Origin: Malachius bipustulatus
Lineage: Eukaryota > Arthropoda > Insecta > Coleoptera > Melyridae
DNA: 64,000 bases
Assembly: GCA_910589415.1 (NCBI GenBank)
Contig: OU342632.1
Location: forward strand, 37,151,637-37,215,636
Reading direction: 5' to 3'
Part shown: positions 3,596 to 58,224 of the stretch, piece by piece
How positions within the stretch are numbered: position 1 is the first letter of the stretch
Layout of the letters: each line of letters starts with the position of its first letter
Made by a program: the position numbers and the translations under genes
The notes under the pieces: generated by a model
The model's input: only the letters and a program-made list of their open reading frames with translations
Database searches by the model: none
What the model was told of the DNA's origin: nothing

Positions 3596-4337
3596 ATTAT
3601 TCGTGTAACTACTGCATCCGGGGACGCCACTGGAACTCATAATTAGTGCTCATCATGTTAGTGCTAATGTAGCTTCTTATCACAACGAACAACACTGACA
3701 AATTTCACCAAAATCGACAAAAGGATTTTTGAGATATTACTAAAAACCGATTTTTTTTTAACTTTAACACCTTGTCTATTTTGAACACCAATTCTATTTT
3801 CCACGATTTCTCAATGCTTATTTAAAGGAAACAGATTTACACAGTGTGTACAGGGTATAAATGCAAATAAATTAGGGGGTGATACCTTGTTTTAAACCTT
3901 TTTCGTTTTAAGGGGTAGGACCTAGAATATAAAAAGCCACCCTAAAAATTATTTTCCACGTAACTTTTTTCTATGTTTCAAATTCAAAATGTATATTGGA
4001 TTCGTAATTTATTCTAAAGAAAAATATGTCTTCTAATGCTTATTTAAAGTTATAATTTCCGCAAAAATAATGATCTTTCAGAGAAATAAAAAATCAATTT
4101 TTGTTAGGTAAACTATACTCTTTTGGCACAGCCTTCAAGGGTAGTAATCCCAACGGGATAGATGCAAATTAATCATTTTCATTTGAAAAATATGCTCCAT
4201 TTTCAACAAGGAATCACCCTCCAAATTAAAAAAAAAACACTTTCGACATGGAAATTTTTGTTCAAGTTATTGTCTAGGACTAAGTAAAATAGGGGTTGGT
4301 CATAATTTAATCATTTTAGATTATTTTTTATACTTAC
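3596..4337. other. Repeat-rich presumed intron of the anillin-like gene
   Basis: This stretch lies directly downstream of the splice donor of the anillin-like exon on the minus strand, so it should be intronic. It holds decayed repeat text, with related phrases near 3866 (GCAAATAAATTAGGGGGTG) and near 4160 (ATGCAAATTAATCATTTTC), but no second coding exon that I can recognise. Confidence 0.5.
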
Positions 4338-5220
4338 TGGTCAATAGTAAAATTCTTTCGGCTTCAACAATTTGTTTTTCATTTGTCAGATTCATAGATT
4401 TGCAAAATTGAATGGCTCGTATTGTCTGCAAGATTAAATTTTTCTGGATAGCCAGTTCTAGTTTTAGCTCCTCGCGCTTGTCATCGATTTCCTTTATCGT
4501 GTACACTTTCGATCTATTTGAAGCAAATCGGGATGTATTTCTACTGAAATTATTATTCGAGTCATTTGGATTATCTTCTAAATTTTCATCCGAACTGTTA
4601 ATAGTTTTTTCACAAGATGTGTTTATATCGCTCACAACTTCGTCATACCACGATGGCGGTTTCTTTGTGGAACTTCTCTTGAGAGATTTTCGCATTTCAA
4701 AAGCAAAACTCTCCAACTCCTTTGCTTTCGATTCTGATAGCGAATTAACATTGACCTTTTTGGATAAATTAGGATCAATATTTGATGAATCCATGTCATC
4801 ATTTTCTATATCTTCGTCAATGCCAATAAAATTAAATGATTTCTGCTGATGTCTTATGAAACTTTTCCTGTATTTATCAGCCAGGTTATCATAATATTTA
4901 TCCATTACAAGTTCGTGTATAATTCTAGAATCTTCTTCTTCCTTACCTTCGGTTGGAGTTGGACTCTCTGGTTCCGCTTTGTATAAAAGAGCCGATTTTC
5001 CCATAACCGGGAATGACGTCCTTCGAAGCTCTTGTTGGTCATTTTTAATCGGAGTTGAAAAGTTAAAAATCTTATGGAGTGTTTGACGTCTTTCTGGTTC
5101 GTTAAAAATATCATTTATGTCCGGGCAGCACTTGTAATTATTCTTCTCGAATATTGTTTCACCATCCTGATGGAGTTTAAACTTCCCTTGTGGTGAAAAG
5201 CACTCAATTGAAGTTTCCAT
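4338..5220 (-). CDS. Anillin-like protein, first coding exon
   Basis: This exon encodes residues 1-294 plus the first base of codon 295. Residues 241-294 form a predicted coiled coil (KEIDDKREELKLELAIQ, then IVEAERILLLT) that matches the segment leading into the C-terminal anillin homology region of animal anillins, where the family pattern is AERxLLxAT followed by KR. Anillins are cortical scaffolds linking RhoA, actin, myosin and septins in the cytokinetic ring. Residues 1-240 are low-complexity, acidic and Ser/Asn-rich, with a basic RKSLKRSSTKKP patch near 177. The frame runs on to a stop at 4321, but CCA|GTAAGTAT at 4338/4337 is a strong donor exactly where the homology stops, so the last KYKK residues are probably intronic. 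The start is supported by an in-frame TAA upstream in the spliced 5' UTR. With about 240 residues before the coil, the N-terminus is much shorter than in canonical anillins. The C-terminal homology and PH domains must lie on exons not seen here. Confidence 0.78.
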
Positions 5221-5228
5221 TTTGCAAT

Positions 5229-5287
5229 CTAAAAATAAACTTAATTAGGTTTCCTTTATGAAACCATACTAGAAATATATAACTTAC
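5229..5287 (-). other. 5' UTR intron of the anillin-like gene
   Basis: On the minus strand AAGATTG|GTAAGTT (5288/5287) is a consensus donor, and TTTATTTTTAG|ATTGCAAAATG (5229/5228) is an acceptor 8 bases before the start codon. The 59-bp intron is typical for insects. After joining, the upstream exon puts TAA in frame 18 bases before the ATG, so coding cannot extend further 5'. The start of the 5' UTR exon was not located. Other donor-like sites lie near 5550 on this strand. Confidence 0.65.
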
Positions 5288-26349: not shown

Positions 26350-27000
26350 ACCCCTATAAGCGCGAATTTTTATAAAATTTTTATTCGTTTAAGTTTTTTC
26401 ACGTTTATTCAACCAGAACTTTCGTTTATGCATCCTCCAAAAAAGTTACATTTGTTTAAGAAACAAATTGATACAATAATAAATCATATCAATTACAGCA
26501 AGCCGATTATTGAAAAACAAAAATGTTTTCTGACGACACAACCCTTATGATATGATAAAGACAGAGACATCGATGTTTCACTTGTTATTTCCAGCTCATC
26601 ACTCTGATTTTCTTTTCTTTCTGTTCGGCACACTACTTTGGTTGTGATAATATGTCAGCCTGATGAGCTGGAAATAACCAGTGAAAAATCGATCTCTCTG
26701 TCTTTATCATACCATAAGGGTTGTGTCATGTTTTACATATTTTTTTATTTTTGTCATATTTTTTTTTGGAATTGCGAACAAACGAAATTTAGGTTTGGCA
26801 AACTTAGACAAACCGTGAAAAAACGAACGCTGTTTCAAAATTAATTAAATATGTTCATATGGGGGTGCTGATGTTAATTTTTTTTGCCCTAATTTTTTTT
26901 TTAAGACCTAACAAACGAAAATTTTGGTTGGTCAAACGGGGACAAATCGTGGACAAACGAACGCCGTTTGTATTTGATAAAAATTCGCACTTCAGGGTAC
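26350..27000. mobile_element. TIR element, about 650 bp, with internal direct repeats
   Basis: The left end, CCCCTATAAGCGCGAATTTT, is mirrored at the right end by AAAATTCGCACTTCAGGGT. Within it, a segment of about 62 bp at 26776-26838 (CAAACGAAATTTAGGTTTGG to ACGAACGCTGTTT) recurs at 26913-26975 (CAAACGAAAATTTTGGTTGG to ACGAACGCCGTTT). A separate foldback element at 26535-26727 sits inside. Non-coding. Confidence 0.6.
26535..26727. mobile_element. Nested foldback MITE, 193 bp
   Basis: GACACAACCCTTATGATATG and the following bases up to CCAGCTCATCA are mirrored by TGATGAGCTGGAAATAACCA through CATAAGGGTTGTGTC. The arms are about 67 bp with few mismatches, around a spacer of about 58 bp. The TGATGAGCTGG text looks like part of a hammerhead core, but the GAAA partner and stem II are missing, so it is not a ribozyme. 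Confidence 0.75.
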
Positions 27001-30511: not shown

Positions 30512-33500
30512 TTAAATGTCCAGATTGCTGTTTTTTATATGTCTGACCAGTCTTTTTAATTCATCTGCGTTGGGGGTTCTTAGAATTTGTGTGAGGTTGA
30601 AAGGTAGGGTAATAGTGTTATTGTCATTGTAATATATGTCTTTCGTGTATCTATCTGTTTCGTTAGAGTTCAGACTGCAGTTAAGAATCATATGTTCCGC
30701 GTCCCCCATTTCTCCACAACGGCAATTTGGGGAGTCTGACAATCCTATTTTGTTTAAGTGTTGGGGTACCCGTCCATGGTTACATCTCAGTCTAGTTACC
30801 GTAGTTATTTCTGTTCTGTTCAAATTCATATTTTTGAACCAGGGATTTCTGAGAGGAGTTTCTTGTATATTTTTAATATAGAATAATCCTTTTGTGCTGT
30901 TGGTGTATTCTGTCGACCATATACTACTTACCCTATCTTTCATGCGAACCATTATGTCCTGCCAAGGGTATTTATACTCTGCTAGCGTTCCTTTTCGTAT
31001 GGATTCTTTTGCCATTTTGTCTACTATTTCGTTGTTTTTTACTCCACAGTGCGCTTTGACCCACACTAAGGAGACTTTTTTACCCTTGTTTCTGGCTTTA
31101 TTTAATTCTATTAGGATTCTATTTACGATATAGTTGTGGTGTCTCCCGCCCGTCATTCTTTGTATACTCTGTAATGCGCTCTTACTATCAGATATTATCA
31201 TAAAATTTTGTTGTTGACATGTGTTTGCATAATTCAAAGCTTCCAACATTGCGATTAGCTCCGCAGTAAAAATGGACATAAATTCTCTTAGTTTGATGAG
31301 TTTTTTGTAACCATTTTCTTGAACATATATAGCGCACGCCGTACCCTCCTTATTTTTAGATCCGTCCGTATATATACAATATGCATTGTTTCTATTTCTC
31401 ATTTCCTCCAAATCGTGCTCAATCATTTTATTTCGTATCTGTTCCGGGTAATTTTCATAGCTATTGATATACTTTACTCCAGAACTGGTATAGCTTTCTC
31501 TGCTCAACGCTAACGGAACTGTGCTGGTTTGTATGGCATCTCTAAATTCTACCAGTTCCCCATATACCTCAGTCAATAGTGGGGACTTTTTCTTCTGCCA
31601 ATAGTTTTGTGTCAGGTCTGCAATGTATAGTCGATGTAATTTGTCTATTAAAGTACTGTTGTGACTGAATAACTTTAGTACAAATCGATTTGTGAGATTT
31701 CTCCTTCTGTATTTGAGAGGCATTTCTCCTATCTCGCTCATCATATTTGTTATCGGGGTAGATCTTAAGGTCCCGAGTATTAGTCTAATACATTTATTTT
31801 GAGCTGTATTGACTTTATTTAGATGCGTTTTGGCCGCTTGATCATATAGAATGGATCCGTAATCCGCTATGGCTCTAATGTATGTTCGATAGATCAATAA
31901 TGCTGTTGCTGGATCTGTTCCCCATTTAGTGTGGCATGTAGCTCTTAAAATATTGGTTGACTTTTCCAATTTGGCTGAAAGTCGTTCCAGATGATTTTTC
32001 CACAACAATTTTCTATCTAATGTTATTCCTAAATATGTTATATTGGATTCTATCGCGAATTCTATGTCATCCAAATTTATTCTCTCCGGACTGCTTTGGT
32101 GTTTTCTCGAAAATATGCATACTTTTGATTTTTTTTCAGATATCTGGAGACCTAGGTCAGATAACCAGCCTCTCAAGCCGGCTACCTCCGTATTCATTTT
32201 GTTGATTCCGTCTTCTAATCTGCAATTCTTTGCATACATGCATATATCATCCGCAAATTGTAGTACCTCTATACCATCAACATATGAGTCTATCTCGTGA
32301 GTATAAACCAGATACAGTATCGGGCTAATGATGCTACCCTGTGGTAATCCAATATTGACCACTCTGGGTCCGATTATTTCTCCATTGATTTTCAAGAAAA
32401 CTTCTCTGTCCTGATAGAGGCTTGTTATTCTATTTGAGAACTCTGGAGGGATTCCAATCGTTGTCATCTTATTGTGAAGTATTTTTAGATTTACATTATC
32501 ATAGGCCCCCTCAACGTCAACAAATAGAGCAACCAGATTGTTAGTGTTTGAAAAGGATTCATAGATATCGCAGACTAAATGCGCTACATTTTCCATTGTA
32601 GACCTATTCTTTCTAAATCCATATTGGGTATCGGATAGTTTTTTATTTATTTCCAGCCACTTTTCCAGTCTATTTTTTATCATTCGCTCAAAAGTTTTCA
32701 ACACACATGATGCCAGACCAATTCCTCTATAGGAGGAAGCTAGGTTTGGGTCTTTGTTTGGTTTTGCTATAGGTATAATAAGGTATTTTTTCCAGTCTTT
32801 TGGAATTTCCCCTTTTTGCCATATTTGGTTTAATATGTTCAGTAATTTGCCCTTGGCCGTGTATCCTAGATTATATAACATGGGATAATGTATATTATCC
32901 AGACCTGGAGAGCTATTTACTCTGTTTTGCAAACTTATTTCCAATTCCTTTCGTGAGAAATTTTCTAGCAATTCATGTGCCGTACTACTAACTTCAGCGT
33001 TTTGGTGATTGATTTTCAAATTCTCCGGGACCCAACATGGAGCAAGTTTGTAAAAAAATTCATTTTGTAACAGTTCCTGGTTTGGTGTTGACCTTGAAGG
33101 AGCATATGTGCTTTTAATTCTTTTCACCTTTGTCCATATTTCTTTTATAGGCGTGTTTCTATTTAATGAATTACAGTACTCCCTCCAGCATTCTCTTTTG
33201 CTTTCTAGAATTACCCTCTTTGCAAGGGCCATATTTCTTTTGTACTTGATGAAGTTTTGAAGATTTGGAGTTCTTTTGTAATCCTTCATTGATTTCCTTT
33301 GATTCTCAATAGCGGTTTTGCAATTTTCGTTCCACCAAGGTTTGCGGAACTTCGGATTGGTAGCCTGGGACCTCCGAGGGATAGACTTGTTGGATGCTTC
33401 GTTTAGGTACTCGACAAATGTAACATAGTCCCAATCCTCTTCCTGGTTTGAAGTTATAAGTTTACAAAGTTCCGTAGAGAAAAGTTTCCAATCTGCTTTG

Positions 33501-34192
33501 CTGAGATTCCATTTCCTATAATCTTTATCTTCATAGTCCGAGCAATTGATTGAACTATTAACTTTAACTACAAAGTGATTTGAGCCTAGTGTTTCGTCAA
33601 GAACTGTCCAGTTTAACGTCGGAGAAATACTGGGTGATACTAATGTTAGGTCTATAGCTGATTTTGTTCTACTTAATGGATTTAATAGAAGCGTTGGGGA
33701 GCCATCATTTAGGAAAATTATGTTTTCATCTTCCATAGCTGACAGTAAATTATTTCCTTGGTAGTCTGACTCTGTACATCCCCAGGTTTGGTGGTGGGCG
33801 TTAAAATCTCCCCCTAGTATAAAAGGTCTCTTCAATGATCTGAAAAAGTTTCCCCATTGATTGGATGATATTCTAGTGTTTGGGGGAACGTATATTGAGT
33901 ATATATTCACAACTTTATTTACACCAACTATTTTCGCACCTGTACACATTGTATTTTCCAGTTTATAGAAATTATTTATTGGATAAAAAGGAATTTTTTG
34001 ATTAATCAGAATAGCAGCTCCGGCGTAGCCGTCGTTTCTATCTGCCCTAATTATATTGAAACCGTTTAATTTGAAATTATAGTGTGGTTTTAGCCAAGTT
34101 TCACTTAAGATCGCTATATTAATATTTTCTTCATTCACAAATTTTTCTAGATATCCCTTGTTTTTTACTATTGACCTACAATTCCATTGCAT
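30512..34192 (-). CDS. LINE ORF2: endonuclease, reverse transcriptase, RNase H
   Basis: A 1226-residue polyprotein that nicks target DNA and copies element RNA by target-primed reverse transcription. Residues 1-215 are an APE-type endonuclease: N4 in QWNCRS, E31 in LSETWL, D129 and N131 in GGDFNAHH, D181 in SAIDLTL, and H206 in SNH. The last motif is usually SDH, so the Asp is replaced by Asn. Residues about 455-740 are the reverse transcriptase: GFRKNRST (525-532), FVDVEGAYD (D559), GLPQGS (615-620) and FADD (646-649). Residues 936-1065 are RNase H with all catalytic acids (D943 in YTDGS, E978 in TAELIA, D1002 in SDSKSA, D1058 in VDKMAK). A zinc-finger-like C-x-C-x7-H-x4-C lies at 1157-1172. 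The start codon follows the ORF1 stop by 5 bases, suggesting termination-reinitiation. There are no frameshifts or stops. Confidence 0.95.
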   Translation of the reverse strand: MQWNCRSIVKNKGYLEKFVNEENINIAILSETWLKPHYNFKLNGFNIIRADRNDGYAGAAILINQKIPFYPINNFYKLENTMCTGAKIVGVNKVVNIYSIYVPPNTRISSNQWGNFFRSLKRPFILGGDFNAHHQTWGCTESDYQGNNLLSAMEDENIIFLNDGSPTLLLNPLSRTKSAIDLTLVSPSISPTLNWTVLDETLGSNHFVVKVNSSINCSDYEDKDYRKWNLSKADWKLFSTELCKLITSNQEEDWDYVTFVEYLNEASNKSIPRRSQATNPKFRKPWWNENCKTAIENQRKSMKDYKRTPNLQNFIKYKRNMALAKRVILESKRECWREYCNSLNRNTPIKEIWTKVKRIKSTYAPSRSTPNQELLQNEFFYKLAPCWVPENLKINHQNAEVSSTAHELLENFSRKELEISLQNRVNSSPGLDNIHYPMLYNLGYTAKGKLLNILNQIWQKGEIPKDWKKYLIIPIAKPNKDPNLASSYRGIGLASCVLKTFERMIKNRLEKWLEINKKLSDTQYGFRKNRSTMENVAHLVCDIYESFSNTNNLVALFVDVEGAYDNVNLKILHNKMTTIGIPPEFSNRITSLYQDREVFLKINGEIIGPRVVNIGLPQGSIISPILYLVYTHEIDSYVDGIEVLQFADDICMYAKNCRLEDGINKMNTEVAGLRGWLSDLGLQISEKKSKVCIFSRKHQSSPERINLDDIEFAIESNITYLGITLDRKLLWKNHLERLSAKLEKSTNILRATCHTKWGTDPATALLIYRTYIRAIADYGSILYDQAAKTHLNKVNTAQNKCIRLILGTLRSTPITNMMSEIGEMPLKYRRRNLTNRFVLKLFSHNSTLIDKLHRLYIADLTQNYWQKKKSPLLTEVYGELVEFRDAIQTSTVPLALSRESYTSSGVKYINSYENYPEQIRNKMIEHDLEEMRNRNNAYCIYTDGSKNKEGTACAIYVQENGYKKLIKLREFMSIFTAELIAMLEALNYANTCQQQNFMIISDSKSALQSIQRMTGGRHHNYIVNRILIELNKARNKGKKVSLVWVKAHCGVKNNEIVDKMAKESIRKGTLAEYKYPWQDIMVRMKDRVSSIWSTEYTNSTKGLFYIKNIQETPLRNPWFKNMNLNRTEITTVTRLRCNHGRVPQHLNKIGLSDSPNCRCGEMGDAEHMILNCSLNSNETDRYTKDIYYNDNNTITLPFNLTQILRTPNADELKRLVRHIKNSNLDI

Positions 34193-34197
34193 AATGT

Positions 34198-35718
34198 TTA
34201 TATTGAATGTTGTGGACTGTTTAGAATCTCGTGTAGCTTTGTCCCTATCAATTGGTTTATTTGATCTGTGTTTAGTATTTTTTTTTCCAGTTTATATAGT
34301 ATTTCTACTAAAAATGTTGTTAGTGTTTGAGTTATAACTTGTTTTTCTCGAGGTTGTATCGCTGTATAGTTAGGGTGGTAAGGATTTATTATTGGAGTTG
34401 TTGATACGTAAGGGGTCTGGAGTATTTGTTTGTGCAGTTGTAGGACTGGATCTGGGTCTTTGTTAGTGTCCATCTTTTTCCGTTTTGTTGGTCCTGTCTC
34501 AGGTGGGAGAAATGTATGGGGGCTCGTGAATTTGTTTTTTGAAATAGTTTTTGGTGATTTCGTCTCTTGTGAGACAGTCGCGTATGACACCTTATATTTA
34601 TTCCTTGCATCATTGTAAGACAAGTTCTCTGTGCCCATTATATGTTTGATTTGTTTTTGTTTAGCGAACTCTGGACAATTTTTTCTGTCTGTTGCGGAGT
34701 GGTCTCCCTCACACAGTATGCAGTGGAAGGTTCCACTCTTATTACAGTCTTTATTTGCGTGTTCCCCACCACAGTTGCTGCATCTTTCCTTGCCCTTGCA
34801 CGTAGTGCTCAGATGTCCATATCTCAGACATTTAAGACATTGTCTAACTTTTTGTATATAAGGTTCCACCTCGAATATTATCTTCTCTATTGATACTTTT
34901 TTTGGTAGTATATTACCCCTAAAGGACACCATTATTGTCTGTGTGGGTACATATTTGATATTATCCCCCTCAACTATCCTTCGGTTCATTCTTCGTACAT
35001 ATGTTACCTTAAATTTTTGGTACCCCAAAGGACTTATTAATTGTTCAAGTTCGGTCTCCGTCAATTCTATATCTATATGACGTATGATACCCGTTCTGGC
35101 TGTTAAGTATTGCGGTATAAACGGTAAGTAATCGTTTCTTTTTAAACTCTCAGATTCTACCAGAAGATTAGCACTTTTTGACGAGTTTAGTTCTATTTTT
35201 ATGAGATTTATCCCTACACTTGTTATGTTTAAAATATTTTCCTGAATATCCGGCACTAATCTATTAATTAATCTAGCCGTGCATATTTTATTTGCTCTTC
35301 CTATATTTTTACCGTTAATTCCTTTAACATAAACAAAGAATGGACCTACCATATGATTTTCATACTTGTTAATCGGCCTTGAGATAAGTTTATCATCAGA
35401 TTTTTTATCTGACGGACTTATTGAAGGCGAACCATTTATATTAATCAGATCGACATCATTTTCAACTCTATTATTACCCGTTACTGCAGTTTGACCAATA
35501 GATTTATATCCGCTTTCATTATTGTATTTAATACTAGATTTCTCACTTACCCTACCTAACTCTTCCAAAAAGTTTCTTACTTGTGGTTCCTGAACCCTGT
35601 ATCTATCGTTGTAACTCGTCTCCGTTTCCATTCTCTGTTCCGTATTTTCATCTAATAAATTTGTCCAGTTTTCCTGCAACGTTTTGCCCCTATCAGGGGG
35701 CTCACTATCTTTGCTCAT
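34198..35718 (-). CDS. LINE ORF1: nucleic-acid-binding gag-like protein
   Basis: A 506-residue protein expected to coat the element RNA and act as a chaperone in the ribonucleoprotein. Residues 1-120 are polar and probably disordered. Residues about 125-280 form the conserved central domain of this ORF1 type (VGPFFVYVKG to KIIFEVEPYI). Three zinc knuckles follow: C294-x2-C-x4-H-x4-C307, C313-x2-C-x3-H-x4-C325, and C333-x2-C-x3-H-x7-C348. The last has the CxxCxGDHSxxxxxCP form typical of I-group and jockey ORF1. The C-terminal 150 residues are Pro/Thr-rich, with a basic TKRKK patch at 411-415 that could be a nuclear localisation signal (inference). The ORF is intact. Confidence 0.93.
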   Translation of the reverse strand: MSKDSEPPDRGKTLQENWTNLLDENTEQRMETETSYNDRYRVQEPQVRNFLEELGRVSEKSSIKYNNESGYKSIGQTAVTGNNRVENDVDLININGSPSISPSDKKSDDKLISRPINKYENHMVGPFFVYVKGINGKNIGRANKICTARLINRLVPDIQENILNITSVGINLIKIELNSSKSANLLVESESLKRNDYLPFIPQYLTARTGIIRHIDIELTETELEQLISPLGYQKFKVTYVRRMNRRIVEGDNIKYVPTQTIMVSFRGNILPKKVSIEKIIFEVEPYIQKVRQCLKCLRYGHLSTTCKGKERCSNCGGEHANKDCNKSGTFHCILCEGDHSATDRKNCPEFAKQKQIKHIMGTENLSYNDARNKYKVSYATVSQETKSPKTISKNKFTSPHTFLPPETGPTKRKKMDTNKDPDPVLQLHKQILQTPYVSTTPIINPYHPNYTAIQPREKQVITQTLTTFLVEILYKLEKKILNTDQINQLIGTKLHEILNSPQHSI

Positions 35719-39115: not shown

Positions 39116-40515
39116 AAATACAAAATCTACACATCCAGCCTATAATTTGTTGAGATAGAATTGTGTAAAGAAGTGAATGTAAGACAGCAATTGAGATGAA
39201 TAATTGAGATAATAATGAGATAATATGAGATAATATGAAAGATAAAATTAAATTAAATTCATCAATTGAGATAGATTGAGATATTAAGATTATGAGATAT
39301 GAAGATATGAGATGTGAAGATGAAAAAATGATGAGATAACAAAAATTTCAATACAAAATCTACATGCAGCCTATAATTTGTTGATACTTGTGTAAGAAAG
39401 CGAATATAAGACAACAATTGAGATGAATTGAGATAATTATGTGATAATATGATGAGATAAGTACTATGAAAGATAAAATTAAATTAAATTCATCAATTGA
39501 GATAAATTGAGATATTAAGATGATGAGATATGAAGATATGAGATATAAAGTTGAAAAAAGATGAGATAATGAAAAATTTCAATCCAAAAGCTACACATGA
39601 AGCCTGTAATTTGTTGAGAATTGTGTAAGGAAGCGAATATAAGACAACAATTCAGATGAATTGACATAATGATGAGATAATATGAGATAATATGAAAGAT
39701 AAAATTAAATTAAATTCATAAATTGAGATAGATTGAGATATTAAGATGATGGAATATGAAGATATGAGATATGAGGATGAAAAAATTCTGAGATAACATG
39801 AAAAATCGCAATCCAAAAGCTACACTTGCCTCTAATTTGTTGTGAATTTCATACGGCGAATGAATATAAGACAACAATTGAGATGAATTGAGATAATGAT
39901 GAGATACTATGAAATAATATGAATGATAAAGTTAAATTAAGTTCATCATTTGAGATAAATTGAGATATTAAGATGATGAGAGATGAAGATACGAAATATG
40001 AAGATGAAAAAATTATGAGATAACATGATAAATTTCAATCCAAAAGCTACACATGCAGCCTATAATTTGTTGAGAATTGTGTAAGGAAGTGAATGTAAGG
40101 CAACAATTGAGATGCATTCAGATAATGATGAGATAATATGAAATAATATGAAAGATAATTAAATTAAATTCATCGTTTGAGATGAATTGAGATATTAAAA
40201 TGATGAGATATGAATATATGAGATATGAAGATGAAAAAATGATGAGATATGTAACATGAAAAATTGCAATCCAAAAGCTAAACTAGCCTCTAATTTGTTG
40301 TGAATTGCATAAGGCAGCGCTAATATAAGACAACAATTGAGATGAATAGAGATAATGATGAGATAAAATCAATTCAAAAACTGCACATGCAGCCTATAAT
40401 TTGTTGAGAATAGTGTACGGAAGCGAAAATAAGAAACAATTGAGATTAATTGAGTTAATGATGAGATACTATGAAAAATTTCAATCCAAAAGCTACACAT
40501 GCAGCCTACAGTTTT
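39116..40515. repeat. Satellite array, unit about 230 bp
   Basis: The landmark CAAAAGCTACACATGCAGCC (or CAAAATCTAC) recurs at 39121, 39354, 39584, 39814, 40041, 40272, 40375 and 40487, giving periods of 233, 230, 230, 227, 231, 103 and 112 bp. There are thus five or six full units and two internally deleted ones at the downstream end. Within a unit, GAGATA, GAGATAATATGA and GATATGAAGATATGA repeat many times, so the plus strand is strongly purine-rich and the unit probably grew from a shorter GAGATA motif. The copies are clearly diverged. There is no coding frame and no ribozyme core. Confidence 0.92.
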
Positions 40516-47800: not shown

Positions 47801-48886
47801 TCTTTCTCTCTTTTCTTTAATAATTACTTACTGTTGATCCGAACTTATATTTAATTAGAGTAGAATTTAAGTAGTAGGGAAAACTCTTCTTCTTCTTCTT
47901 CTTCTTTTGACCACCCACAAAGGACAATATAAGGATCACTGACTCGGCGCCATTAGGTTCAGATTCGTGTCACAAGAAAGGTGGAAAATTAAAAAAAAAA
48001 ATCAATTTAATGTGGTCTGCAATATGTTTATGTGTCCTTGTCCTTTACATCATTAGTCACAAAGACCTCTGAAGTGTCATTGTGTTGGAGGGGGGGGGGA
48101 TATGTTACTGATTGTCGCGTAGTTTCTTTTAGTGCCACTGTTTTTAAATCAGATGGTTCTACTGTTCTACTACCATATGAGACAAAATTGGGGTACAGTC
48201 ACAATAGCCTGAACAGGTCTTACAACTGATAGGAGTCGGAGGGGATCTAATCTGTCCCAATGAATATAACATAGACGACCCCTACCCCTTCATAAGGGTC
48301 TGCGAGGTATTTAGTCAACACTCAACATATTGGGGCCATAAGCATTTACGGAGGAAGAACTCTGGAACTCTTCTTATTATGTTAAAGACCTTCTGGTCTC
48401 TCTGAAAAGGCCGAGAATGTTTGAGTAGGAGCTCGCACCATGCTACGGGAATATCGAAAATTCCTTGATCACATAGTCACCCTTCCCATCATACCCAGAC
48501 CAATACCCACAAGTCAGGGGATCCTTAAAAGTGCACTTCACTGGGAGGAGAGATAGAGCTCCCGCTCCCCCCACCCCCAACTAAGGCCCTTGTTGTTTTT
48601 TTACAAGAGTCCAAATCACGCCTACAAGAAACTTAACTAACGCTACAAAACCAACACCAATGGAGGGGGCACCGTCAGCCAAGATGACTCCCCCTCCCCG
48701 TAATAACTTATGTTACCAAGATTACTCTTGCAGCGTTGGATGGTAATCGTTCGTAGCTAATTTTATAATCCTCTACCATGCCCGCATTCTTCTTATTTTC
48801 TTATTTTTTCGTCCGTTGCTCGTTAGCAGATTGACAGATTGTAGCTGATTGGCTGCAAGGGTCTACATCTCGACTTCTAGTGTAGG
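44831..48886. other. Non-coding stretch with simple repeats
   Basis: No supportable gene. Simple tracts are a run of about 16 G near 46704-46719, (TTC)n at 47886-47908, and a G run near 48090. From about 48230 to 48760 the sequence becomes GC-richer and looks unlike its surroundings (GGAGGGGATCTAATCTGTCC, CCCCCACCCCCAACTAAGG), yet has no long frame. It borders the ribozyme-bearing repeat and may belong to the same insertion. Near 46980-47330 a moderately GC-rich stretch has a 104-codon minus frame without a domain. Confidence 0.4.
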
Positions 48887-49480
48887 ATAGCGAATTGTAG
48901 GTCAATGAGTATAAAGCACATAGAGTGCAATTACTAGCCTGTTAGGTGGGTTCGGAGAATTCCTCCATCGCCCATAACAGTGGTCATGCTGGCAGTGCTC
49001 GAAACTCCAATCGAGAAGGAGCTTCCAATATCCAACAGCAGAGCCTTCCAGAGTACCAAATCAAGCACAGACACGTGTTTCGTTCTACTGGAACTCATCA
49101 GTGTGCTGTATCTGGAGTGTCTGGAGGATGCTGTCGGTTGAACGGAAGTTGGGGCCTCTTAAGGCAAGAATTAACACGGATCTCCGTGTGGTGTAAATAG
49201 AGCGACATCTAGCGCTCAGTGAGTGCAATTACTAGCCTGTTAGGTGGGTTCGGAGAATTCCTCCATCGCCCATAACAGTTGTCATGCTGGCAGTGTCTGT
49301 GCTTGATTTGGTACTCTGGAAGGCTCTGCTGTTGGATATTGGAAGCTTCTTCTCGATTGGAGTTTCGGGCACTGCCAGCATGACAACTGTTATGGGCGAT
49401 GGAGGAATTCTCCGAATCCACCTAACAGGCTAGTAATTGCACTCTATGTGCTTTATACTCATTGACCTACAATTCACTAT
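48887..49480 (-). mobile_element. Retrozyme-like element with hammerhead ribozyme
   Basis: The layout combines direct and inverted copies. The segment GAGTGCAATTACTAGCCTGT through GCTGGCAGTG occurs at 48923-48997 and again at 49221-49295 with one mismatch, a tandem period of exactly 298 bp. Between them lie the ribozyme and about 100 bp unique to one unit. A third copy is inverted: arm 48887-49073 mirrors 49292-49480 with only a few mismatches. One unit with a hammerhead ribozyme, plus partial tandem and inverted copies, matches metazoan retrozymes (units of a few hundred bp) and the terminal repeats of Penelope-like elements. No reverse transcriptase is nearby, so it would depend on one supplied elsewhere. 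Short frames (48946-49200, 49209-49421) are translations of the repeat and not genes. Confidence 0.75.
49047..49116 (-). ncRNA. Type I hammerhead self-cleaving ribozyme
   Basis: Read on the minus strand, all parts are present in order. Outer stem I is TCCAGATAC and inner stem I AGCACA (49107-49102). The core CTGATGA is at 49101-49095. Stem II is GTTC/GAAC around the loop CAGTA (49094-49082), followed by GAA. Stem III is ACAC/GTGT (49080... to 49071, using the last A of GAAA). The cleavage base C is at 49070. Then TGTGCT (49069-49064) closes inner stem I, and GTA-C-TCTGGA closes the outer part with a 7-base internal loop. Every helix is fully complementary. Self-cleavage would fall between 49070 and 49069. 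Stem III is a palindrome without a loop, so cleavage should need a dimer or tandem context, as reported for hammerheads of Penelope-like elements and retrozymes. Activity is inferred. Confidence 0.85.
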
Positions 49481-51430
49481 TTTATGAATTAATCATTGAG
49501 TATACTTGCCTTCTGTCTTCTTCTAGTGTAGGAGTTCACCTGTCTGACAGTCTTCAAATTTTAGTCCAGATCTTATTGATAAGAATTGTATATCTGTGTC
49601 GTATAATATACGGAATGTTTTGCAGAGCTCTGAACGTAGGAGATCCGCTGATAGAATGGTCAGAGGTCTCTATTACATCGATTCACTAAAAACGAGACAG
49701 AAAAAAATGTGAAAACTATAGGGGGTGGACTATATGGGAAGATCAAAGGCAAAAGCTAGAGAAGACGATAAAGGGAAAATAGATGAAGATCAGGCAGATT
49801 TCACAAAGAAAAAGAGGGCGATCAAGAAGATAATGGAAATATGATGAAGTGGACGAAAGCAATGGAGATGAGACACCTAGAGGGAGGGCGATGATTGGCA
49901 AGATAGGAATTCATGGAGGTAAAGGCTGAAAGCAGGAAAACAGTGCGAGTTATCAAGACAGTTATCTTATCGATATCTTCGATTTATACTTTTAAGAAGC
50001 ATGGTGTCATAATTCTTCTTTTTATGTAGGTTTCCCTGGAGTACCGCAAGAGTCCAATCTTCATCTTCTTATTTTCTATTTTTATGCTGCTGTTATTATA
50101 AAAATTTTCAAGTGTTCACGGATGTTACTTTTTTGTTCACTTGAACAGAAGTACAAGTGCAACAACTTGAATTTCAATGTAATAAAACTGTAAAATATTC
50201 GTTTTCATACGAAGAAAACATCCGGATCTATTCTTACATTATGATTTCATCATTGATGTTTCTTACTGAGAATTATATTGTAGAACTTGAGGTTTGGGGT
50301 GCTAGTGTCTGATTATTGTTTTCTCCAGCTCACCTAAAACTGTAGATGCAATTTTCTTTCTTTTTCAGTAGGTACCTAAAATTTTTATTCGTTAGTTCTA
50401 ATTTATTAAGGCTATCCTTCTTAGTAACGTATGTATATTTCAAATATGTAAGTATGTATTGACGATTTATATAGTATAAATTCCCATAAAGAGGATATAT
50501 CTCTTACTGGTAATTATTATGGAAACTTTACAAAAGTTGTTATCTCTATAAAAATTTTATATTAATAGAACTCACGTTTTAAATAAATAAATACCTATAA
50601 CTATTTTATTTTCTAAGAAATAAATAGGACAATAACATTTAACAGCAGCTCTAAATTTTTTGCCTTTAAATAGATCGGTAGCGAATTATCATAAATTATA
50701 AAATCAATAAAGTGCGGTCTTAATTGCTTGTAACGTCAAAGCACGATCAATAAAATTAGTCGGTCTATTCTTAAGTTGAAGAAGATTTAATTAATGCACA
50801 ATATTAATTAAATCTTATGGTCCTTCATTTATTATAGTTTGTCATCGGTGAGTATTTTCCTCGTTTATAAATCAAGTTGTCAGATCGGTTATCTTCACTA
50901 TTTATCTCTGCCAGGGTAAATATGAAGGTCTTGGACTTTTTCCAAAGAAACGTACAATAACAATAACGCATACGTTCAAAACCTGCATTTACTTTTCCTA
51001 TTTACACTTTTATATTTATTTTACCTAAAATAAATCATTTGTTGATATACATCGTAAGGTAAAACAATTACTCATCATAATGTACGCTTAAGCTAATGAT
51101 AAACTAAGCCTTGGCAACTTCGCCTCGGTCATGTCGTCAGTGAAAATGTTAAGATGAACGTCGGATCCAAGACCATGGCTAGACAATTGGAAATTTCTTG
51201 AGAGTACAGAATAAAATATCTAACCAATGAAGTGCAAACTTCGAGGTCATTATCACCATCGACATCACCGTTGAGAAATTCTTGAACTTTTCACTTATCT
51301 AAAAATTGAGAGATGGAAGTTTACAAATTTCAAAACCTTTTGAGCATCAATCGTCTAAATAGTGCATTTTTTAAATGACCGATCCAACTGACTTAGGAAA
51401 TCGAGTACGCACGTGGTAGATTTTGCTTCA
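49481..51430. other. Non-coding stretch
   Basis: No supportable gene. At 49690-49960 a purine-rich, GC-richer patch (AAGCTAGAGAAGACGATAAA, GAGGGAGGGCGATGATTGGC) looks like decayed coding text of an element, but no domain can be named. Beyond 50000 it is AT-rich background. Confidence 0.4.
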
Positions 51431-58013: not shown

Positions 58014-58224
58014 TTACATCTAACGGCACGGACACGTACGGGTCCGGGTGTTCAACGTAGACGTGCATTTTTATTAATAAATGAATGGCTGCATTTAGAT
58101 CACGGGGACAGACTGACAACAAAACGTCGCTTTCAGATGTAATGCAGTCAATCAAAATCCATTTATTATTAAAAATGCACGTCTACGTTGAACACCCGGC
58201 CCGTGTCCGTGCCGTTAGATGTAA
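58014..58224. mobile_element. Short MITE with long, GC-rich inverted repeats
   Basis: TTACATCTAACGGCACGGAC and the following bases through ACGTGCATTTTTATTAATAA are mirrored by TTATTATTAAAAATGCACGT through GTGCCGTTAGATGTAA. The arms are about 65 bp with one small indel (ACGTACGGGTCC against ACGGGCC) around a centre of about 75 bp. The GC-rich ends stand out from the AT-rich surroundings. The superfamily and target-site duplication are unclear. Confidence 0.8.

Follow-up and report, generated by a model that had tools for sequence, protein, structure and literature searches.

The window, a stretch of 64,000 nucleotides from the beetle Malachius bipustulatus (contig OU342632.1), very probably carries an old copy of a non-coding, non-autonomous retrozyme with a unit of 461 nucleotides (nt) that was inserted by the machinery of a Penelope-like element (PLE). 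By composition the locus is a retrozyme, its unit slightly over the reported length, and by insertion it is PLE-like. The new part is the insertion anatomy, which consists of two arms, two fixed start sites, and an initiation region also found in a PLE.

A first-pass annotation of the window had placed a type I hammerhead ribozyme on the minus strand, which is borne out by direct reading and by an end-to-end match to the Rfam model:

49064 to 49107, minus strand: type I hammerhead ribozyme (Rfam extent), match to Rfam RF00163, predicted cleavage C49070/T49069

The core reads CTGATGA at 49101-49095 and GAA at 49081-49079. Stem I pairs AGCACA (49107-49102) with TGTGCT (49069-49064) and continues distally as TCCAGA/TCTGGA (49116-49111 and 49052-49047), while stem II pairs GTTC (49094-49091) with GAAC (49085-49082) around the loop CAGTA; both stems pair as annotated, and C49070 appears to be the correctly placed cleavage base according to the reading and the RF00163 match. 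The motif displays the CUGANGA...GAAA...H core and the three helices of type I hammerheads, is open at stem I, and has a helix III of only 2 bp plus a tetraloop. Among the three helices first described, stems I and II stand, but the 4-bp ACAC/GTGT hairpin proposed as stem III is impossible, as no loop would remain; the intramolecular stem III is instead 2 bp (AC/GU) capped by a palindromic ACGU tetraloop. The 8-nt palindrome ACACGUGU at this stem could pair in full only between two molecules. A similarly short helix III is known from the minimal type I hammerheads of terminons and other minimal PLE hammerheads (PMC7761336), yet the retrozyme, unlike terminons, has no reading frames.

The RF00163 model matches over 49107-49064 with 32.6 bits (E = 3e-5 with 6 kb scanned, and 3.2e-4 across the full window). 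As this is below the Rfam gathering score of 34, a default Rfam scan shows no hammerhead, and the covariance-model check proposed in the annotation, a score over threshold, is formally missed by 1.4 bits. In four further retrozyme loci (L012, L026, L041, and L049), every one of 31 matches to the model scores 32.6 bits. Nor does folding energy mark out the hammerhead stretch; 36 of 200 shuffles reach an equally good fold (z = -0.98). The score under the cut-off and the unremarkable energy are what could be said for a chance match, an explanation with practically no probability, since the genome (544 Mb in 52 contigs) contains 594 exact copies of the 25-nt core, 282 forward and 312 reverse, compared to 0 + 0 for a reversed-pattern control. 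The same counts uphold the earlier argument that the motif was too improbable to be accidental. The window hammerhead is a real motif and part of a small non-coding mobile element with hundreds of genomic copies, and from its sequence, RNA of the unit would be expected to cleave itself. A second, bare hammerhead-like core was seen at 17719-17694 on the minus strand (CTGATGA-GCCCT/AGGGC-GAAAC) and was rejected as a complete ribozyme because it has no matching stem I or III; its exact 26-mer occurs at two genomic places, the window and G000:C3:36482677. Exact-pattern scans of viral contigs gave no match.

The parent unit is 461 bp long and arranged head to tail in tandem, with one arm of locus L012 containing 13 whole units and two part units. 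Positions within it are numbered u1-u461, u1 being placed at the cleavage site. A DNA search with the unit gave at least 295 matches, from 40 scored of 1019 candidate stretches. The family resembles the metazoan non-LTR retrozymes described in PMC7229834 in its type I hammerhead within a tandem-repeat context, its short non-coding units, its highly self-paired predicted circle, its duplications of more than 4 bp, and the presence of PLEs in the same genome. Folded as a circle, the unit has a predicted energy of -173.5 kcal/mol compared to a mean of -119.3 kcal/mol for 60 shuffles (z = -8.4), and its G+C content of 46.6% is below 50 and above 45, the values for metazoan retrozymes being under 45-50%. 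It differs in size, as 461 nt is slightly over the 170-400 nt given for metazoan retrozyme units (PMC7229834) and the 150-450 bp of earlier surveys. The longest ATG frame on the repeated unit is 54 amino acids (aa), leaving it without coding capacity, and an ORF with reverse transcriptase and GIY-YIG domains, which would indicate PLE membership, is absent from the 461-nt unit. The anole PLE has a frame that begins at an ATG within its ribozyme core; a PLE-like frame of this kind was rejected for the retrozyme, as it runs by eye for 54 codons and then stops.

For comparison across the family, 52 loci were used, comprising all 51 clusters from the first 100 of the 594 exact-core places together with the window; chosen by exact core, the sampled loci favor intact copies. 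Whole units inside the arms of L026, L041, and L046, which are young arrays, differ by 0-1 bases, compared to 0-14 in the older L012, where most variable sites among 11 aligned units are private to one unit. With such small differences, the L041 and L026 copies look recent.

In the window, the retrozyme forms a single two-armed insertion with the following features:

48874 to 48887: left target-site duplication CTTCTAGTGTAGGA, 14 bp; the exact word occurs in the window only here and at 49520
48888 to 49519: entire retrozyme insertion, 632 bp, two head-to-head arms
48888 to 49069, minus strand: left arm, u1 to ~u182, running from the cleavage site out to the short (S) end (aligned by BLAST with the 461-bp unit; end u181 defined by the duplication)
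49070 to 49220, minus strand: left arm, u310-u461, with the hammerhead core (BLAST to the unit)
49221 to 49295, minus strand: left arm, u73-u147 (BLAST to the unit); u148-u309 absent between this piece and the u310-u461 piece
49293 to 49295: 3-bp overlap GTG at the arm junction; inner ends u73 (left arm) and u457 (right arm)
49293 to 49519, plus strand: right arm, inverted, u457-u461 followed by u1 to ~u222, where the long (T, tail) end lies (BLAST and duplication)
49454 to 49504, plus strand: right-arm hairpin TATACTCA (49454-49461) / TGAGTATA (49497-49504), around S and just before the T end
49520 to 49533: right target-site duplication CTTCTAGTGTAGGA, 14 bp

The insertion contains a pair of 188-bp inverted repeats, 97% complementary, with the ribozyme at the inner edge of one of them. 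The window copy, in which u148-u309 is missing and the two arms disagree at 5 of 183 sites, is therefore an older insertion. Taken by itself, the window had suggested a unit of about 302 nt, a value rejected on account of the same missing segment. The tail, which is about 35 nt across the family, measures about 40 nt in the window copy, and the right-arm hairpin is the counterpart of a hairpin in the Penelope element described below.

The window contains several other features. A LINE-type retrotransposon lies at 30512-35718 on the minus strand, with a 1259-aa frame containing endonuclease, reverse transcriptase, and RNase H domains; its preceding 506-aa frame has no Pfam match and shows CCHC-like cysteines by eye. 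A tandem repeat with a 227-bp period (5.4 copies, 84% matches) extends over 39137-40366. Two stretches, 26553-26709 and 58049-58194, score against the microRNA precursor families MIR7504 and MIR7502 below the cut-offs, and our guess is that they are long hairpins of inverted-repeat mobile elements. Finally, a 307-aa frame at 4324-5244 on the minus strand has no Pfam match, and its C-terminus recalls anillin.

Across the family, the outer ends of the arms fall at about u190 (S) and u225 (T), and they were assigned to two classes, S = u181-u195 and T = u219-u236, drawn after the ends had been seen. Clusters containing both orientations among the first 100 of the 594 core places run minus then plus with their 3' sides outward in 16 of 16 cases, and 13 further mixed clusters among the unit-search matches listed are all minus then plus. 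Duplications of at least 12 bp were found at 24 of the 52 loci and of at least 9 bp at 31, while 300 random flank pairs gave three of 9-10 bp, none longer than 10 bp, and 0 reaching 12 bp. By structure, 26 loci combine two arms with a duplication of 9 bp or more, 9 have two arms but lack such a duplication, and 17 are one-armed or otherwise arranged. In all 26 of the first class, one end is S and the other T, with S on the left in 13 and T on the left in 13, and S/S or T/T in none; ends that were independent and of equal odds would give 26 of 26 with a probability of 0.5 to the 26th. Once the rule had been set, four loci on C4, C7, C13, and C16 were added from among the 13 mixed clusters, and it held in four of four, each with a 12-bp duplication. 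Among the nine two-armed loci without duplication, L031 shows T and S (230/191), while in each of the other eight one or both ends belong to neither class, and the 17 one-armed or other loci show an S-like end in 10, a T-like end in 4, and neither in 3. The anatomy, the duplications, and this one-S-one-T pairing are direct observations, and a comparable count was not met in the literature searched, coverage of which was partial and thin for subscription journals.

PLEs insert with their arms head to head, a short duplication, and one arm bearing a tail of 30-40 nt. In Adineta vaga, Penelope insertions are reported with an inverted pseudo-LTR (pLTR) and an optional 31-bp tail on one inverted pLTR; their duplications, if any, measure 8-10 bp (PMC3846280). 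The retrozyme shares with them the head-to-head arms, the short duplication, and the tail on one arm, but it is non-coding, its arms often contain one or more whole units, and its duplications measure 12-15 bp in 24 of the 31 loci having at least 9 bp. It is very improbable that these insertions go back to LINE-driven movement of a satellite or retrozyme, in which arrays would have arisen via unequal crossing-over and inverted arms via later DNA rearrangement. Although LINEs are present (in the window at 30515-34291) and hammerhead-bearing satellites exist, the duplications enclose the whole two-armed block, the outer ends sit at two fixed positions, all 30 scored loci obey the S/T pairing, and the same two ends occur in a PLE of this genome.

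That PLE belongs to a well-populated group. A GIY-YIG profile search of the genome gave 775 candidates, 150 of which were scored, and many of the scored matches belong to tandemly arranged open frames, 823-855 aa long and about 3.3 kb apart. On G000:C11 (84,009 bases), GIY-YIG matches recur every ~3.3 kb, six on the minus strand and then the listed rest on the plus strand; it is a giant head-to-head array of an 833-aa PLE. The unit was compared by lax local alignment to ten PLE loci, including six ORF-length classes and with five of the ten taken from twenty profile-search loci. Only one of the ten, L081 of the 823-aa family, matches the unit, with u155-u286 aligning to the stretch just before and at the ORF start. 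The alignment scores 34; shuffling the unit 200 times never gave more than 24, and none of the remaining nine loci exceeded 19. By BLAST, the unit and L081 agree at 66% over 98 columns (E = 1.2e-4), and a plain BLAST search with the unit among the twenty PLE loci produced no match better than E 3.6. Both RVT_1 and GIY-YIG were found in the 791 aa examined of the 823-aa protein, for which 540 relatives were found; the named ones among the 120 listed are insect proteins, 34-43% identical, mostly from beetles (Diabrotica, Coccinella, Anthonomus, and Pyrocoelia) and two from butterflies.

The homology between unit and PLE covers the region where copying starts, and the ends of the 823-aa PLE's own insertions match those of the retrozyme. 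In three of three two-ended PLE insertions, BLAST placed one S end (1409, 1411, or 1415) and one T end (1446, 1448, or 1456). Duplications of 13 bp refine two of them to 1409 with 1444 and 1409 with 1446, the second duplication being T/A-rich and weaker, and three single ends lie at 1408, 1446, and 1452. The alignment of unit and PLE equates u190 with 1407 and u225 with 1444. The retrozyme RNA can form an 8-bp stem from TATACTCA and TGAGTATA, and the PLE RNA one from TATACCCA and TGGGTATA, the two stems differing by one compensatory pair; compared to shuffles, the PLE hairpin is unexceptional (z = -1.25) and the retrozyme hairpin reaches z = -2.78. A hammerhead-like core, recognized by pattern only and differing from the retrozyme core, is also found in the PLE, while an Rfam scan of six PLE loci gave no family match at E 0.01. 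The 823-aa family, rather than a close relative, would be the source of the enzyme.

Published Penelope inserts, with their inverted and direct pLTRs, short duplication, and 31-bp tail, resemble the window copy, and intact-looking PLE frames are plentiful in this genome. The locus might accordingly be read as a decayed pLTR fragment of an ordinary autonomous PLE, with no separate retrozyme family. This is improbable, as complete 461-bp units are repeated in tandem, have many matches in the genome, and contain no ATG frame over 54 aa. Furthermore, the homology of the unit to PLEs is confined to the ~130-nt initiation region in one of the ten loci, the rest of the unit being in none, although some of these stretches may miss the ORF start. 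An autonomous copy with the whole unit as its pLTR was absent among the PLE loci examined, ten by alignment and twenty by BLAST. The guess in the annotation that the host unit was a retrozyme or a PLE proved apt, in that a 461-bp non-coding retrozyme shows the insertion anatomy of a PLE. The annotation itself had described the motif only, so that the 632-bp insertion with its duplication, the parent unit and its copy number, the head-to-head arms, and the initiation region in common with a PLE are additions to it.

Inside the insertions, the inner ends of 52 arms are scattered along the unit. An initial pile-up at the cleavage site (6 of 52) was rejected as an edge artefact of a unit starting there; it disappeared when arms were re-extended across the join, and a footprint of cleavage in vivo is therefore not claimed. 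After re-extension, 1 of 52 inner ends lies within u460-u3, compared to 0.56 expected, and there is hence no sign that templates were cut at the cleavage site. The absence of such a stop of the cDNAs speaks against a needed cut and fits circles closed across the site, and equally uncut multimers. Four of the 52 ends lie exactly at u368 (L030, L040, L045, and L046), possibly a pause site of the reverse transcriptase. A gap in inner ends at u171-u234 was disregarded because short arms there would escape detection. Where the arms meet (26 loci), 11 junctions show overlaps of 1-9 bp and 15 contain 1-54 extra bases, resembling end-joining.

Arms at the same locus have 262 variants in common, compared to a permutation mean of 65 and a maximum of 156 (2000 permutations, 26 loci). 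For rare shared variants, present in at most eight loci, the count is 85 compared to a mean of 9.6 and a maximum of 47 (2000 permutations). This directly observed sharing indicates that both arms derive from one RNA or one source, and a single RNA may have served each insertion. Gene conversion, subfamily structure, or two RNAs of one source could also produce shared variants.

PLE-type insertion is favored here with either uncleaved or circular RNA as the template. A rival form of it would start from linear, uncut multimers transcribed from genomic arrays, with the hammerhead and circles having no part in transposition. The missing stop at the cleavage site agrees with this, as does the anole PLE PAc, whose hammerhead, located where pLTR and ORF join, is assisted by the protein and not needed in vitro, where unprocessed RNA is inserted (PMC11167929). 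We nevertheless regard it as the less likely course, given how the hammerhead varies among copies. In 19 hammerhead positions, 6 of 1339 cells are variable compared to 1295 of 25287 elsewhere, about 11 times less variation, and only 5 of 5000 random block sets were as low. Sampling was biased to intact cores, but the 19 counted positions lie outside the search pattern, and so the ribozyme seems to matter; its conservation also lends indirect support to self-cleavage. The near-identical units of young arrays and the private variants of L012 likewise fit one repeatedly copied template, although a multimer from a young array would look alike.

For PLE-type insertion of the retrozyme, the following course may be proposed. 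Retrozyme arrays would be transcribed, and the hammerhead would cut the multimers to units that are then circularized, or multimers may remain uncut. A PLE protein would bind the RNA at the hairpin common to retrozyme and PLE, and its endonuclease would cut the target with a stagger of ~12-15 bp. Both cut target strands could then prime reverse transcription on the RNA, one at S (u190) and the other at T (u225). Each copy would pass back through the cleavage-site junction, sometimes for several rounds, with scattered stops, and end-joining would link the two cDNAs head to head. As a tentative model, to which we give slightly less than even weight, two PLE reverse transcriptases may work on one circular ribozyme RNA, at S and T, with rolling-circle copying that proceeds from the two sides of a single staggered break and yields mirror-image tandem arrays. 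The one-S-one-T rule would then be the mark of a dimeric integration complex whose two priming seats are unequal, and the retrozyme could be seen as a parasite of PLEs, reduced to the initiation hairpin and a ribozyme.

Parts of this course are known from the anole PLE PAc, which cleaves and extends both target strands in vitro and whose cDNA starts inside the RNA at two sites delimiting a 30-40 bp tail (PMC11167929). The retrozyme similarly starts internally at two sites 30-40 nt apart. For PAc, the two strands are reported not to differ in their start sites, whereas each scored retrozyme insertion uses S and T once, on opposite strands (PMC11167929). The word "retrozyme" does not occur in that paper.

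For animal retrozymes, movement by PLEs using circular templates has been suggested, PLEs being named a strong candidate only (Cervera and de la Pena 2020, PMC7229834), and a 2024 review still words the movers as LINEs or PLEs (PMC11722881); as far as these sources go, the mover has so far been only a proposal. The two-arm anatomy, the two fixed starts, and the initiation region shared with a PLE go beyond what is described in PMC7229834. With the start region, the two start sites, and a comparable duplication size all common to a retrozyme and an autonomous PLE of one genome, the question of the mover becomes a direct biochemical test in which both the enzyme family and the RNA can be named. 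The one-S-one-T pairing also bears on PLE integration generally, as each scored insertion combines two different priming events on two strands.
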